64,000 nucleotides of DNA from Cellulomonas sp. RIT-PI-Y (GTDB lineage Bacteria > Actinomycetota > Actinomycetes > Actinomycetales > Cellulomonadaceae), in assembly GCF_025642745.1 (NCBI RefSeq), contig NZ_JANZKP010000010.1:1-64000 (forward strand), given 5' to 3'. Positions 30,358-64,000 of this stretch are shown in pieces. The notes under the pieces are model-generated. The model worked only from the letters and a program-made list of their open reading frames with translations, was not told the DNA's origin and did not search any database. The number at the start of each line of letters is the position of its first letter. Within the stretch, counting starts at the first letter, position 1. The translations under genes were made by a program, and so were the position numbers.

Positions 30358-30592
30358 GCGGGTCGTGTGGCCGGGCGCCGGGATCACGTGGCCCAGCGCC
30401 CAGGGATCACGTGGCCCTGCGCCGGGGGTCGTGCGGCCGGGCGCCCGGGGATCACGTGGCCCGGGGCCGGGGGTCGTGTGCCCAGCGCCCGGGGATCACG
30501 TGGCCCTGCGCCGGGGGTCGTGCGGCCGGGCGTCCGGGGCTCGTGTGGCCCGGCGCCCATGGCTCGTGTGGCCCGGCGCCCGCGGCTCGCAC
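30358..30592. repeat. 22-23 bp minisatellite with alternating unit types
   Basis: About ten consecutive units of two types, one starting GGATCACGTGGCCC and the other GGGTCGTGCGGCC, alternate to give a 45-bp higher-order period (for example 30401-30445 and 30494-30538). The last units change to GGCTCGTGTGGCCCGGCGCC. The first type contains a CACGTG palindrome in every copy. Confidence 0.85.
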
Positions 30593-39137: not shown

Positions 39138-39237
39138 TGCCGTGCGGGGCCGACGGTCTGCGCCGGCCCCGGGCGCACGCCGCGCCGACCTTGTCGCGCC
39201 CGCGCTCTCCGCGCCACGCGCACGCAGCGACAAACTC

Positions 39238-39361
39238 TGCCGTGCCCGAGACCCTGCCGCGGCCGAGACCCTGCCGTGCCCGAGACCCTGCCGTGCCTGA
39301 CCGTGCCGTGCCTGAGACCCTGTCGCGCCCGACCGTGCCGCGCCCGACCCTGCCGTGTCCG
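39238..39361. repeat. 15-17 bp minisatellite
   Basis: About eight units of TGCCGTGCCCGAGACCC, with shorter variants ending GACCG, run head to tail. Confidence 0.8.
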
Positions 39362-39394
39362 CGCAACACGCCATCCGCGCCCGACTCTGGCATC

Positions 39395-39457
39395 GCCGAG
39401 AAGTCATTTCCCGTCGGCCAAATCGCCCGATCAGCGACACAGAATGGCTTCTCGGTG
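39395..39457. repeat. second palindromic element, copy Y
   Basis: Arms GCCGAGAAGTCATT and AATGGCTTCTCGGTG are reverse complements with one mismatch and flank the core CGTCGGCCAAATCGCCCG. Arms and core match the element at 28166-28229. Confidence 0.75.
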
Positions 39458-39566
39458 AGATCGATCGTGCTGCGGGGGCATCGTGCCGTTGCTGAGGGCG
39501 CACGAATGCAGGGCTCGGGGCCTCTCAGGCGTGCACTTGTGCCCTCTCGCGCGTGATCGGCCCGGA

Positions 39567-39740
39567 CGCGCAGGCTCGACCGCGCGGGCTCGGTCGTGAT
39601 GAGCTGGACGCGCGGGCTTGGCCGCGCAGGCTCGTCCGCGCAGGCTCGGACGTGTTCGGCCCAGACGCGCGGGCTCGTCCGCGCAGGTCCGCACGCCCCA
39701 GATGCGCGGGCTCGTCCGCGCAGGTCCGCGCGCCCCGGAC
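39567..39740. repeat. 14-bp core minisatellite
   Basis: At least nine copies of CGCGCGGGCTCGTC or CGCGCAGGCTCGTC, some separated by short spacers such as CGCACGCCCCAGA, precede the 3' end of the ROK gene. Confidence 0.8.
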
Positions 39741-39764
39741 CACCGGCCCGGCCGCGCAGCCCCG

Positions 39765-58874: not shown

Positions 58875-59249
58875 GCCGTCCAGGGTAGACGGCCGTGGCG
58901 CGGGCGCACCGGGTGATCCCGGGCCCCGGCGGCGCGTGACCGTGCGGGCGCGTGCCCGCGTTTTCACGCAGGCACGCTCACGGCCCGGGCGCCGTCGCGC
59001 TGTGATCGAGGTCGACCGCGCGTGACGGGTACCTAGAGCCTCCCGGGGCGATGTGGTCGGAGTTCCACCTAATTCCCTCGGCCGCACCCCCTACCAAGGC
59101 GGGCCCGTCCACTCACTCCGCGCACGCAACTCCGGTCCTCACGGACCGAGGTGGTCACATACCGCGCATCGCCGCCATTCCCTGGCTGCCCGGTTGTGCA
59201 TCGCCACGAGTGTCCGCGGTCCGGGTCGGGTACCACTAGGAGTCCTCTC
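58875..59249. other. 375-bp intergenic region upstream of the large secreted protein
   Basis: Contains the -10-like box of the PLDc_N gene (TACCCT on the minus strand, 58882-58887) and the AGGAG ribosome-binding site of the downstream gene at 59238-59242. Between 59040 and 59200 the base composition drops slightly and a small GGTCC/GGACC hairpin occurs. No riboswitch class or gene was recognised. Confidence 0.5.
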
Positions 59250-62200
59250 GTGTCCTCGCTCACTCATCTCCTCGCGCCTCCGTCGCGCCGGGTCGCCCGG
59301 ACGGGCGCCTCGTTGCTGGCGGTGACGGCGCTCGTCCTCGCGATGGTCACCGGCGTGACCCCGGTGGCACGCGCCGCCGACGCCGCGGCGATCACCGCCT
59401 CGATCAGCTACGACGGCACCGCCCCGTTCGACGCCGACGACGCGCCGGGGAACGACTCCGGTGCCGCGAACGGCGTCGTCCGGTCGATGGACCGGATCGG
59501 CTACCAGCTGTCGGTGACCCCGGCCGCGGTCGGGGTGGTCACCGTCCAGGCGGTCGCCCCGGCCGGACTGCAGTGGCAGTCCGAGTCGTTGGCCGGGTTC
59601 GACGGGTCGATCGACGGGCAGACCATGACCATCAACCTGGACGCGCAGGGCACGGCGCCGATCGTGTTCTCCGTGGTCGCCAAGGCGCTGGCCGTCGCGA
59701 ACGGGACCGTGCTGCCGGTCACCTTCACCTCCGGCGCGGTCTCCTCCGACCCCCTGTCGGTGACCGTGTCCTCGACGCCCTCGTTGCGCACCATGAGCTA
59801 CGGCGAGCGGCAGGACAGTGGGATCGTGGCTGCTGCGGGGACACCGTACGAGGGACAGCTGGTCAACCGGTTCATCACCACCTACGGCCTCTACATGCCA
59901 TTCGACGCGACCAAGGGCGCCTTCGGCTTCGAGTCGCTGTCCGATCCGATCACGCTCACCGTGACCAAGCCCACCGTCGGCTCGGGGTGGGAGGTCGAGC
60001 AGTGCTCCGCCGCGCAGTCCGGGGTCGCGGACTACTACCCGAAGGCCTCCGGCGGCGGCGCGAACGGCGCGGTCGACAGCGGGACTTGGACCTGCGTGGA
60101 CAACGGTGACACCGTCACGATCACCATCACCGGGCTGGACTCGATGCTGAGCAGCTACCCGACCAAGAACGCCAACGGGACCGGCCGGAGCAACGTGGCC
60201 TGGATCGGCACCGGTCAGATCATCTGGCAGCTGCCGATCGCCGGGATCGAGGACGGCGCGACCGCGTCGTTCCCGGTCACCGTCGTCGACCCGACCTCCG
60301 TCTCCGGCGTGCCGGTGCCCGGCGTGAACGGCTCCGTCGCGTCCTTCGCCCTGTCCGCGCCGGTGGAATACACCTACAACGTCTCGATCCAGGGCCAGGT
60401 GCGCTGGCCGAGCGGGCAGTGGGGCACGACCGGCGGAGCCGGCCTGATGCTTCCCGGCCGTGTCGTCGAACCGAGGTGGCAGCTGACCACCCAGAACGTG
60501 ATGCAGCACGAGCTCACCGGTCTGTACGGCTGCATGCTGTGGGACAACTCCCTGTTGAGCTACGCGCAGGGCCGCTCGATCACGCTCTCCGATGACGCCG
60601 CGAACTGGACGTTCGAGTACGGCACCGCCGCGTACGGTGGCGAGGCCGAGCGTCAGACCGCCGACTGCGGCATCGTGGGCGACGGTGCCGCCGGCTGGTA
60701 CGGCTCGGTCGCGGACGTCCCCGGTGGAGCTGCCGCGATCACGGGCGTCCGTATGGTGCGGACCACACCGCTGCCCGCCCAGACGATCACGAAGGTCACG
60801 TACGCCCCGCCGCTGACGATGGCGGCGGCCGATCTGCCGCTCGGCACCTACCTCCCGGTGTACACGCAGTTCGGTGCGGACCAGATTCCGCTCCAGCAGT
60901 CCACCTACGTGGCCGCCACGAACGCGAACACCGCGTCCGGCGGTCGGGTTGCCGTGAACCACGTGGCGCTCAGCGGCACGGTGAGGTGGGACGTCACCGA
61001 GACCCAGTCCCTCGGTGAGGTGCGCACGGTCTCCCTGGGGCGCACGCTCGGTCTGACCGGTTACGGCTCGGTGGCGAAGGACGTGGTCCACACCGTCACG
61101 CTGCCCGCCAGGGTCACGCTGCAGAGCGGGTCGTCCCGCTGGCAGGACCAGGCGATCACTCCGGACATCACCGCGAACGCCGATGGCACGACCACGCTGG
61201 TCTACCACCTGGGCGACGTGGCCGTGGACAGCGTCGGGGCCAACGACCCCGTCACCTTCTCGGTGACCCTCGACCCCGCGATGGCCATGCCCTCCACTCT
61301 CGTCGTGAGTGGCACGGTCGCTTCCCCGTCCGACACCGCCACGGCCAGGACGGCGGCCACCTCGAGCCTGGCGGTCAACGCACCGCAGAGCATCCAGGTC
61401 AGCAAGACCACGAACGTCACCTCGACCACGGCGGGCACCCCGGTGACCTACACCGTGTCCTGGGGCAACCGGACCTCGGACGACATGGGCGACAGCAGCT
61501 TCGTCGACCTGCTCCCCTTCGACGGGGACGCCCGCGGCACCACCGGCCTGAGCGGTCTCGTGCTGAACTCGGTCGACGTGGTCTCCGACACCTCGGGGGC
61601 GACGGTGCAGTACACCACCGACGACCCCGCGGCCGTGCAGTCCGCCCTGGTCGGCGACGTGACCGGCGGAACCGGCATCTCCTGGACCACCGGCATCCCG
61701 GCGGCCGACAGCACCGAGGTCACCGCGCTCCGGTTCGTCCCGAGCGTGCCGTTCACCACCGGTGCGATCGGCAAGGCCGAGATCACCCTGACCCCGACCG
61801 CGCTCGAGTACGGCGGCACGCTGGTCAATTCCGTGGACGGCTCCGTCGACGGCTGGTCGGTGGACCTGCGGAACGCCGCCACGGTGACGCTGGACTCCAG
61901 CGCCTCCCAGGTGACCGGCAACGTCTTCAACGACCCGGACTTCGCGTTCGCGCGGACCGAGAACTCGACCGGCGTCGCCTCGCCGGTGGTGCGGATCGTG
62001 AGCGGCTACGCCTTCGGCCCGGACGGGGACGACAACGGCGGCGAGGGCGACGACGTGCCGCTGGCCGAGCCGATCACGGCGCTCGTCGGTGCGGACGCCG
62101 CGGCCTACCTGGACGACCCGCAGGTCGGGGACTTCGTGTTCCCCGGCCTGGCCCCGGGCAGGTACGACGTGCAGGTCACCCCGGCGGCCGGGACCCACGT

Positions 62201-64000
62201 CGGCGTCCTGCCGGACCTGGCGAGCAACGACCCGCTGACTGGTCTCAACGTCGGCAGCGTCGCCCATGACGTGGTGATCGCGCCGAGCACCCTGGTGACC
62301 GGCCTGGACTTCGGCATCCAGCGGAACGTCTCCGTGCCCCAGGCCCAGCCTGACGAGGCGCGGGTCGGGGTGGAGGCCGCCGAGGTGGTCATCCCCGTGC
62401 TGACCGACTCGACCGCGGTGGACACCGAGGCCCAGGTCGCGCTGAACACCCGGGCCGACACGCTGGAGGGCGACACCGCGACGGTCAGCGTCGCGGACGG
62501 CCAGACCACCAGCCAGGTGAGCGTGGACGCGGACGGGCAGATCGTCTACACGCCGAACCAGGACCTGATCGACGGCTGCACCGCGGCCGGCGGCGAGGCC
62601 TGCACCGAGCAGCTGGAGTACACGCTGACCGACTGGCTGGGTCAGTCCGGCACCGGCCTGCTCACCGTCACGGTCCAGGCGGCCCCGGCCGTCACCGGTG
62701 GCACCGCCGCCGTGGCACTGGGCAGCGACGCGACCTTCGACGCCGCCCCGGTCACCGTCGGCAGCATCGCCTCCGCGACGGTGGTCCAGGCCCCCGAGGC
62801 CGGGACCGTCACCACGAAGGCCGACGGCACCGTGACCTACCGGGCCGGTGACGCCGAGGCGGGCGCCTACACCTTCACCGTGCGGTTCACCGACGACCTG
62901 GGCCAGAGCAGCACGGCCACCTACTCGGTGTCCGTGGTGGACGGGCCCGGCGTGATCGGCGGTACGGCAGTGGTCCCGCTCGGCGGCAGCCACACCTTCG
63001 ACGCCGCGCCGGACAGCGCCACGGGCATCGTCTCGGCCGAGGTCGTGCAGACCCCGACCGCCGGGACGGTCACCGCCGACGTCTCCGGCGAGGTGACCTA
63101 CGACGCCGGCACGGCCGTCGCCGGGGTGTACCGGTTCCAGGTGGCCTTCACCGACGACCTGGACCAGACGGCTATCGCCGCCTACACGGTGACCGTGCAG
63201 GGCGACCCGACCCTGACCGGGGGATCGGCCGTGGTGCCGATGGCGGGGTCGCACACCTTCGACGCCGCGCCGGTCACCACCGGTGAGATCGTCTCGGCGG
63301 TGGTGACCCAGGCCCCGGCCGCCGGTGCCGTGACCGTCACGGCCGCCGGATCGGTGGTGTTCGACGCCGGTGACGCCGCCGCGGGTGTCTACGCGTTCGA
63401 CGTCACCCTGACCGACGACTTCGGGCAGACCGGCTCCGCCCACTTCCAGGTGACCGTGCAGGCCGCTCCGGTGGTCAGCGGGGACACCGGGCGCACCGGG
63501 CAGCGCGGCACGCTCACGTTCGACGCGGCTCCGGTCACCACCGGCAGCATCGCCACGGCCGTGGTCGGTGCCCAGCCGGCCGCGGGCGGCGTGACGGTCA
63601 CCGCCGACGGTGCGGTGATCTACCGGGCCGAGGGGGCGGACGGCGGGGAGTACCCCTTCACCGTCGACTACACCGACGACCTCGGCCAGACCGGCACCGC
63701 GGCGTTCACCGTCACCGTGCAGGCCGTGCCGACCGCCACCGGCGGCTCCGCGGTAGTGGCCGTGGGCGGGACCCACGAGTTCGACGCCGCGCCGGTCACC
63801 GGCGGCCGGATCGCCGCGGCCACCGTGTCCCAGGCCCCGGGCCAGGGCGGCGCGACCGTCGACACCTCCGGCGCGGTGACGTTCACCGCCGGTGACGCCG
63901 CTGCCGGGGAGCACGCCTTCGTGGTGACCTTCACCGACGACCTGGGGCAGACCGGCACCGCCCGGTTCGTCGTCACGGTCCAGGGTGCTCCGGTCGTCAC
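59250..64000 (+). CDS. large secreted repeat protein (surface/adhesin-like), 3'-partial
   Basis: At least 1583 residues, open to the window edge. GTG at 59250 follows AGGAG. A Sec signal peptide (hydrophobic LLAVTALVLAMVTGV, cleavage site near VARAADA) starts the protein. Residues ~45-700 are beta-rich, with a DUF11-like stretch (VSKTTNVTSTTAGTPVTYTV) near residue 715. A SdrD-B-like domain with an acidic loop (GPDGDDNGGEGDD) follows at ~890-1030. From residue ~1145 an 87-residue Ig-like domain repeats exactly, at least five times, each with TFDAAP and FTDDLGQTG-type motifs. Likely a cell-surface stalk or adhesin. The anchor, if any, is beyond the window. Confidence 0.88.
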   Translation, partial: MSSLTHLLAPPSRRVARTGASLLAVTALVLAMVTGVTPVARAADAAAITASISYDGTAPFDADDAPGNDSGAANGVVRSMDRIGYQLSVTPAAVGVVTVQAVAPAGLQWQSESLAGFDGSIDGQTMTINLDAQGTAPIVFSVVAKALAVANGTVLPVTFTSGAVSSDPLSVTVSSTPSLRTMSYGERQDSGIVAAAGTPYEGQLVNRFITTYGLYMPFDATKGAFGFESLSDPITLTVTKPTVGSGWEVEQCSAAQSGVADYYPKASGGGANGAVDSGTWTCVDNGDTVTITITGLDSMLSSYPTKNANGTGRSNVAWIGTGQIIWQLPIAGIEDGATASFPVTVVDPTSVSGVPVPGVNGSVASFALSAPVEYTYNVSIQGQVRWPSGQWGTTGGAGLMLPGRVVEPRWQLTTQNVMQHELTGLYGCMLWDNSLLSYAQGRSITLSDDAANWTFEYGTAAYGGEAERQTADCGIVGDGAAGWYGSVADVPGGAAAITGVRMVRTTPLPAQTITKVTYAPPLTMAAADLPLGTYLPVYTQFGADQIPLQQSTYVAATNANTASGGRVAVNHVALSGTVRWDVTETQSLGEVRTVSLGRTLGLTGYGSVAKDVVHTVTLPARVTLQSGSSRWQDQAITPDITANADGTTTLVYHLGDVAVDSVGANDPVTFSVTLDPAMAMPSTLVVSGTVASPSDTATARTAATSSLAVNAPQSIQVSKTTNVTSTTAGTPVTYTVSWGNRTSDDMGDSSFVDLLPFDGDARGTTGLSGLVLNSVDVVSDTSGATVQYTTDDPAAVQSALVGDVTGGTGISWTTGIPAADSTEVTALRFVPSVPFTTGAIGKAEITLTPTALEYGGTLVNSVDGSVDGWSVDLRNAATVTLDSSASQVTGNVFNDPDFAFARTENSTGVASPVVRIVSGYAFGPDGDDNGGEGDDVPLAEPITALVGADAAAYLDDPQVGDFVFPGLAPGRYDVQVTPAAGTHVGVLPDLASNDPLTGLNVGSVAHDVVIAPSTLVTGLDFGIQRNVSVPQAQPDEARVGVEAAEVVIPVLTDSTAVDTEAQVALNTRADTLEGDTATVSVADGQTTSQVSVDADGQIVYTPNQDLIDGCTAAGGEACTEQLEYTLTDWLGQSGTGLLTVTVQAAPAVTGGTAAVALGSDATFDAAPVTVGSIASATVVQAPEAGTVTTKADGTVTYRAGDAEAGAYTFTVRFTDDLGQSSTATYSVSVVDGPGVIGGTAVVPLGGSHTFDAAPDSATGIVSAEVVQTPTAGTVTADVSGEVTYDAGTAVAGVYRFQVAFTDDLDQTAIAAYTVTVQGDPTLTGGSAVVPMAGSHTFDAAPVTTGEIVSAVVTQAPAAGAVTVTAAGSVVFDAGDAAAGVYAFDVTLTDDFGQTGSAHFQVTVQAAPVVSGDTGRTGQRGTLTFDAAPVTTGSIATAVVGAQPAAGGVTVTADGAVIYRAEGADGGEYPFTVDYTDDLGQTGTAAFTVTVQAVPTATGGSAVVAVGGTHEFDAAPVTGGRIAAATVSQAPGQGGATVDTSGAVTFTAGDAAAGEHAFVVTFTDDLGQTGTARFVVTVQGAPVV
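62682..64000 (+). repeat. tandem 261-bp repeats encoding 87-residue Ig-like domains
   Basis: Units begin at 62682, 62943, 63204, 63465 and 63726, and a sixth begins at 63987. Every spacing is 261 bp with no insertion or deletion, although unit sequences have diverged substantially. Shared protein landmarks are the PxVxGG start, HTFDAAP, YxAGDAAAG and FTDDLGQT. The array continues past the window. Confidence 0.93.

Follow-up and report, generated by a model that had tools for sequence, protein, structure and literature searches.

The locus studied here raises the question of why the repeat units of a secreted protein should keep an exactly constant length while their sequences diverge, and what kind of protein such units build. 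The gene lies at the end of the window, i.e., the whole stretch of 64,000 bases that was analysed, which forms the first part of a 76,961-base contig in an assembly (G000) of 3.52 Mb and 94 contigs. The reading preferred here, to which a probability of roughly 0.8 can be given, is that of a secreted, sortase-anchored fibrillar surface protein in which nine Ig-like Big_9 domains form a stalk that carries a head; by analogy, such a protein is probably an adhesin. It would be exported by its signal peptide and held to the cell wall by a sortase at an LPRTG motif. The nine Ig-like Big_9 domains, seven of which appear to stem from an old series of 87-residue duplications, would hold a beta-rich head away from the cell. 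An Ig domain is approx. 4 nm long, and the reach of the stalk is estimated at 35-40 nm. The head (approx. 650 residues, of no known family) would bind a ligand, as the general head-stalk-anchor plan suggests, though ligand binding is a guess.

The gene and its repeat array

Within the window, the open frame spans 59151-63998 on the forward strand, and the likely start of the gene is a GTG at 59250 with an AGGAG-type site (CTAGGAGTCCTCTC) just upstream. The array had been said to run off the window, and it does: the frame passes the window end by 985 bases and closes at a stop codon at 64983-64985 (contig C2, same numbering), which gives a protein of 1,911 residues (Table 1). Residue numbers such as K752 count on the longer, 1,944-residue frame from 59151. 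The original prediction had named a premature stop or an enzyme domain downstream as findings that would speak against it; the frame is open to its stop at 64983-64985, and no enzyme domain was detected in the protein. On the opposite strand, a 1,619-residue open frame (59139-63998) lies antisense to the gene; the high GC content of third positions probably accounts for it. Away from the gene, tandem arrays with 23/45/89-base and 14-56-base units are found at window positions 30363-30589 and 39237-39759.

Table 1. Features of the gene in window numbering, which continues unchanged on the contig beyond position 64,000
Feature	Position	Strand	Remarks
Gene	59250..64000, continuing to stop 64983-64985	+	1,911 aa from GTG 59250
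Signal peptide	59250..59384	+	n-region with RR, then a hydrophobic core, and ARAADA at the end; called by eye
Head without Pfam/NCBIfam match	59385..60962	+	opens with DGTAPFDADDAPGNDSGAANGVVR, a motif common to surface proteins of several phyla
Beta-sandwich domain like the middle domain of sortase pilins	60963..61382	+	structure match, weak model
DUF11-like (CnaA-type) domain	61383..61901	+	candidate isopeptide triad K752 / D786 / N893
Prealbumin / SdrD_B-like domain	61902..62420	+	by position; relatives L080, L082, L083 score SdrD_B here
U0, diverged Big_9-type domain	62421..62681	+	Cys pair
Unit 1, 87 aa	62682..62942	+	
Unit 2, 87 aa	62943..63203	+	
Unit 3, 87 aa	63204..63464	+	
Unit 4, 87 aa	63465..63725	+	
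Unit 5, 87 aa	63726..63986	+	
Unit 6	63987-64247	+	cut by window end; 63987..64000 inside window
Unit 7	64248-64508	+	outside window, same contig
U8 (Big_9)	64509-64769	+	outside window; linker after U8, before LPRTG
LPRTG	64872-64886	+	outside window

The periodicity of 261 bp (87 residues) is exact, as had been claimed. Self-identity of the repeat region reaches 51% at a lag of 87 residues, compared with 16% at the next best lag among 60-119, and TFDAxP-type anchors lie 87 residues apart in all six spacings. Five full, diverged units without an indel had been described, and units 1-5 (62682-63986) are indeed complete in the window; once the downstream DNA is included, seven consecutive units of exactly 87 residues are counted, still with no indel, followed by U8 and then by the LPRTG sorting signal. 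Pairwise identity among the seven units is 44-64%, with a mean of 54% (21 pairs), and the DNA of neighbouring units is 59-70% identical. The flanking domains U0 and U8 have diverged further (16-26% and 22-34% identity to units 1-7, respectively) and keep the 87-residue register, behind which compensating indels inside these two domains may lie hidden. The Pfam profile Big_9 (PF17963) matches nine stretches of the protein at 119 bits (cut-off 23.6), and the NCBIfam tandem-95 repeat profile (NF012211) scores 131 bits (cut-off 90).

The structure prediction proposed for one unit was made for three, using a six-row alignment (A3) that comprised six of ten overlapping unit windows; a MAFFT alignment of all ten (A1), in which the windows slid by one unit, was not used for the fold. 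The AlphaFold model has a mean pLDDT of 95.2 and a pTM of 0.77, with seven strands per unit and units that abut without a linker. In Foldseek, it came closest to titin I67-I69, to cadherin arrays and to an RTX adhesin extender, and a second structure comparison (VIA) aligned 248 residues with titin (Z 11.4) at an rmsd of 6.9, a high value across three domains that may reflect differing domain angles. At the sequence level, phmmer found no match among PDB sequences up to E 1. The model supports the view that the stalk units are tandem Ig-like sandwiches, which together would form an elongated, Ig-like stalk.

Isopeptide bonds between the domains had also been suggested. Lysine is absent from units 2-7 in both species compared (see below) and occurs once in unit 1; such bonds along the array are therefore impossible in units 2-7. 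A stabilising Lys-Asn isopeptide bond may occur in the DUF11-like domain beneath the head, to judge from a candidate triad that recurs in nine aligned heads, the present one included: K752 is kept in seven, and D786 and N893 in eight each. The order Lys-Asp-Asn matches the CnaA-like pattern, in which Lys belongs to the first strand, Asn to the penultimate one and Asp is catalytic, but the head model (pLDDT 60) is too poor for strand placement. The N-terminal parts described earlier as DUF11-like and SdrD-B-like can be recognised by position and in relatives, but neither reaches a Pfam cut-off in the protein itself. In particular, the DUF11 profile gives no match and SdrD_B stays below its cut-off in a region too diverged to score; among the nine aligned heads, two match Pfam DUF11 weakly and four match NCBIfam B_ant_repeat.

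Constancy of the units and anchoring of the protein

A second copy is found in another member of the genus (G256, a single-contig genome) at the same locus: genes resembling resB and ccsA, as well as a small one on the reverse strand, precede it (names assigned by eye), and synteny continues downstream of the gene. The copy contains the same seven units and aligns without a gap over 1,141 residues, which disfavours an assembly error as the source of the regularity. Each of the nine domains is closest to its positional counterpart in the other species (72-86% identity, compared with at most 64% off the diagonal), so the duplications are older than the species split, and no change in copy number is seen since. 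According to NG86 estimates, dN and dS are 0.119 and 0.274 for units 1-7 and 0.074 and 0.209 for the preceding DUF11/SdrB-like part, with single-domain dN/dS ratios from 0.28 (U0) to 0.79 (U8); judged by these values, selection on the two copies is purifying overall. The match to G256 breaks off shortly ahead of the gene and picks up again at residue 646-647; in between, 2,051 bases of G000 (window 59037-61087) are replaced by 30 (L076:8640-8680). With its start, its signal peptide and most of its head deleted, the G256 copy is probably a pseudogene; the rest of the head was not found elsewhere in that genome (three of six candidates scored). Among 40 genomes of the genus, a sample that does not include G256, the only one to match residues 77-1096 is G000 itself. 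As far as these genomes indicate, the gene is rare, accessory and dispensable.

The strictness of the array was judged against a small set of nine repetitive surface proteins, hand-picked for strong self-similarity, that share with the present protein the head (L078 and L080) or its opening motif (the other seven). A single lag is kept in four of these (L088, L097, L126 and L129, the last called from only two windows), all of them short arrays of approx. two to three units, and a shifting or irregular lag is seen in the other five (L078, L080, L114, L120 and L130). All three long arrays (L078, L080 and L114; approx. six to twelve units) shift by one to three residues, even though most of their windows are more self-alike than those of the present array. 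In unit length, the present array is thus stricter than any of the three that are comparable in size.

The original prediction interpreted this constancy as the mark of a selected rigid rod. In its strongest form, the proposal is that selection acts on the 87-residue spacing itself, which would serve as a ruler for length or as a rigid rod, with indels and changes in copy number purged and the head kept at a fixed height. Seven units free of indels at 54% mean identity, a unit number and register common to both species, the linker-free AlphaFold model and the shifting lags of all three long comparison arrays count in favour of such selection. However, four shorter arrays keep a single lag too, and the second species has lost the head yet retains the array. 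Moreover, unequal crossing-over can hardly be frequent between repeats whose DNA has diverged this far, and copy number would not change easily, so that a stable unit count needs no selection. Given also that the comparison set is small and that just two species bear on the matter, selection for length is rather unlikely: the rigid-rod reading is partly supported, by the strict length and the linker-free Ig model, whereas selection for rigidity is a conjecture. That the units stay at 87 residues is most likely due to a compact Ig fold, with no linkers at the joints and with loops in which few indels are tolerated, and a special ruler mechanism is unnecessary to explain it; on the evidence of two species and a few comparison arrays, this ordinary answer is the most likely one. 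The opposite proposal, that this is a Periscope-type protein whose stalk varies in length between strains and so hides or exposes the head, draws on the head-stalk-anchor layout known from SasG, Rib and Sgo_0707 (available text of PMC8201768). It is disfavoured and very improbable, since the repeats are only 44-64% identical as protein and 59-70% identical between neighbours as DNA, and since both species compared (one genome per species) have seven units.

The C-terminal end of the protein, read directly, consists of LPRTG, a hydrophobic stretch and an RRRR tail, and the LPXTG anchor profile TIGR01167 scores 22.4 bits in the genome search (cut-off 15.9); together with the signal peptide judged by eye, this supports the surface display that had been proposed. 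Against a wall-anchored adhesin speak the score of 14.7 bits, below the cut-off, in an hmmscan of the whole protein, the rarity of the gene, a poorly modelled head with no known adhesive domain, and the lack of a sortase in the assembly: PF04203 has no match in G000, compared with one to four in each of the other 39 sampled genomes of the genus (39/39), and a class E sortase model reaches E 0.19 at best. Of the seven other anchor matches that were read, five are frames that end in LATTG or LAVTG followed by a membrane stretch and a basic tail (L014, L015, L016, L017 and L019, on contigs C3, C15, C32 and C45), two of them leucine-rich-repeat-like by eye; class E sortases are common in actinobacteria and prefer LAXTG, as described in the available text of PMC5148588. 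In all four relatives examined (G003, G008, G021 and G256), DUF881 and trpG-pknB flank a sortase gene (the loci compared were L034 of G003, L149 of G256 and L053 of G000). Among 48 G000 loci, no orthologue of pknB was found (best identity approx. 44% or less, compared with 61-67% for orthologues), none of DUF881 (only 29% matches, compared with 52-63%) and no match at all to trpG (85-88% would be expected of orthologues), and the one kinase of G000 to show four PASTA matches is a paralogue. The absence of the block rests on these 48 loci, on whole-genome DUF881 and PASTA family searches and on a DNA search in which 40 of 810 candidates were scored. The completeness of the assembly is stated as 99.98%, yet the DUF881-sortase-trpG-pknB block seems to be missing. 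It might be argued from this completeness, from the 0 versus 39/39 sortase counts and from the five further LATTG or LAVTG tails that the lineage has truly lost its sortases and that its proteins with LPRTG or LAxTG either are secreted nowadays or stay attached by their membrane tails only. This is improbable, as the conserved block of the relatives is absent whole from an assembly of 94 contigs and as both block and sortase are present in the close relative G256. Because it is the whole conserved block that seems missing, a gap in the assembly is likelier than sortase loss.

The head and its relatives

The head falls outside existing annotation: residues 79-917 match no Pfam or NCBIfam family up to E 1 and contain no known adhesive domain, and the structural model is weak (pLDDT 60, pTM 0.36). 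In this weak model, residues 605-744 resemble the central domain of pilins assembled by sortases (EbpB, Z 12.3, 126 residues aligned, rmsd 2.9), and there is a further match to part of the N-terminal domain of Sgo0707 (4igb_C, Z 11.2, 130 residues aligned, rmsd 3.5). Matches to integrins (Z approx. 11-14, rmsd mostly 16-22) were taken as generic beta-sandwich matches and set aside, which leaves the short match to pilins as the one relied on here.

A whole-protein search of genome contigs confirmed no relative, and tblastn with the 1,020-residue N-terminal part gave no match in plasmids. In an order-wide sample of 396 genomes, with up to three candidates scored per genome, 14 genomes (G000 included) match residues 77-743; of the other 13, four (G120, G175, G359 and G367) were seen as short loci only. 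Eight other heads are 19-30% identical to the present one and sit on differing stalks: Big_9 in L077 and L079, DUF7927/DUF11 in L080, SdrD_B with DUF5979 in L082 and SdrD_B in L083 (the stalk scan left out L078, L081 and L084, and L078 is DUF11-type by eye). Most of the nine fetched relatives of the head end in sorting-type tails. These tails are LPRTG in G256, LPKTG in L080, LPHTG in L082, LAGTG in L078 and LAASG in L084; L077, L079 and L083 have non-canonical ASTG, VETG and GSTG ends, respectively, and L081 runs off its contig.

A scan for the opening motif of the head yielded 64 loci, including ones from Leucobacter, Nocardioides, Bifidobacterium, Corynebacterium, Clostridia, enterococci and planctomycetes. 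In 15 of them the frame runs off the locus; among the remaining 49, L[PA]x[TS]G occurs within the last 60 residues in 19 (by regular expression only). Beyond Actinobacteria, relatives of the motif are found in Clostridia, enterococci, planctomycetes and Proteobacteria. It may tentatively be proposed, although the odds are somewhat against it, that the head is a genuine adhesive module, widely shared yet lacking a Pfam or NCBIfam family, and that it was transferred whole onto Big_9, DUF11/DUF7927 and SdrD_B + DUF5979 stalks across Actinobacteria. The protein as a whole is an ordinary kind of surface protein whose layout is conserved in one relative, and its head is worth naming: it points to an unannotated family of heads on the surface proteins of actinobacteria, which one could define, express and test for binding.

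Comparison with known systems

The protein resembles the fibrillar adhesin-like proteins of Firmicutes and Actinobacteria, for which Table 3 of PMC9210967 tallies thousands of actinobacterial predictions based on a known stalk domain only. The likeness to the description in the available text of that paper lies in an N-terminal annotation gap, four or more known stalk domains and a C-terminal sortase motif (Big_9 is counted as a stalk domain by our own reading, as the main text of PMC9210967 does not name it); in contrast to the fibrillar adhesin-like proteins described there, the present protein is without a known adhesive domain. It also belongs near the Big_9 and tandem-95 repeat proteins, as both profile cut-offs are exceeded and nine Big_9 stretches are found, but its units are free of indels and count 87 residues rather than the approx. 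95 of the name.

The candidate triad below the head can be set beside CLIPPER domains, the renamed DUF11, which the available text of PMC12617251 describes as CnaA-like domains with a Lys-Asp-Asn pattern. Lys, Asp and Asn occur here in the same CnaA-like order and are kept in most related heads, whereas the DUF11 score is not reached and, unlike in the domains described there, the bond is a candidate from sequence.

A further comparison is with the Periscope proteins SasG, Rib and Sgo_0707, which, according to the available text of PMC8201768, have stalks with varying counts of highly identical repeats, e.g., 82-100% between adjacent SHIRT domains. The present protein shares with them a head, a stalk of folded repeats and a wall anchor, but differs in that its repeats are diverged and their count is the same in two species. 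It therefore offers a clean case of an old Ig stalk with constant unit count and length, in contrast to the fast-changing stalks of Periscope proteins.
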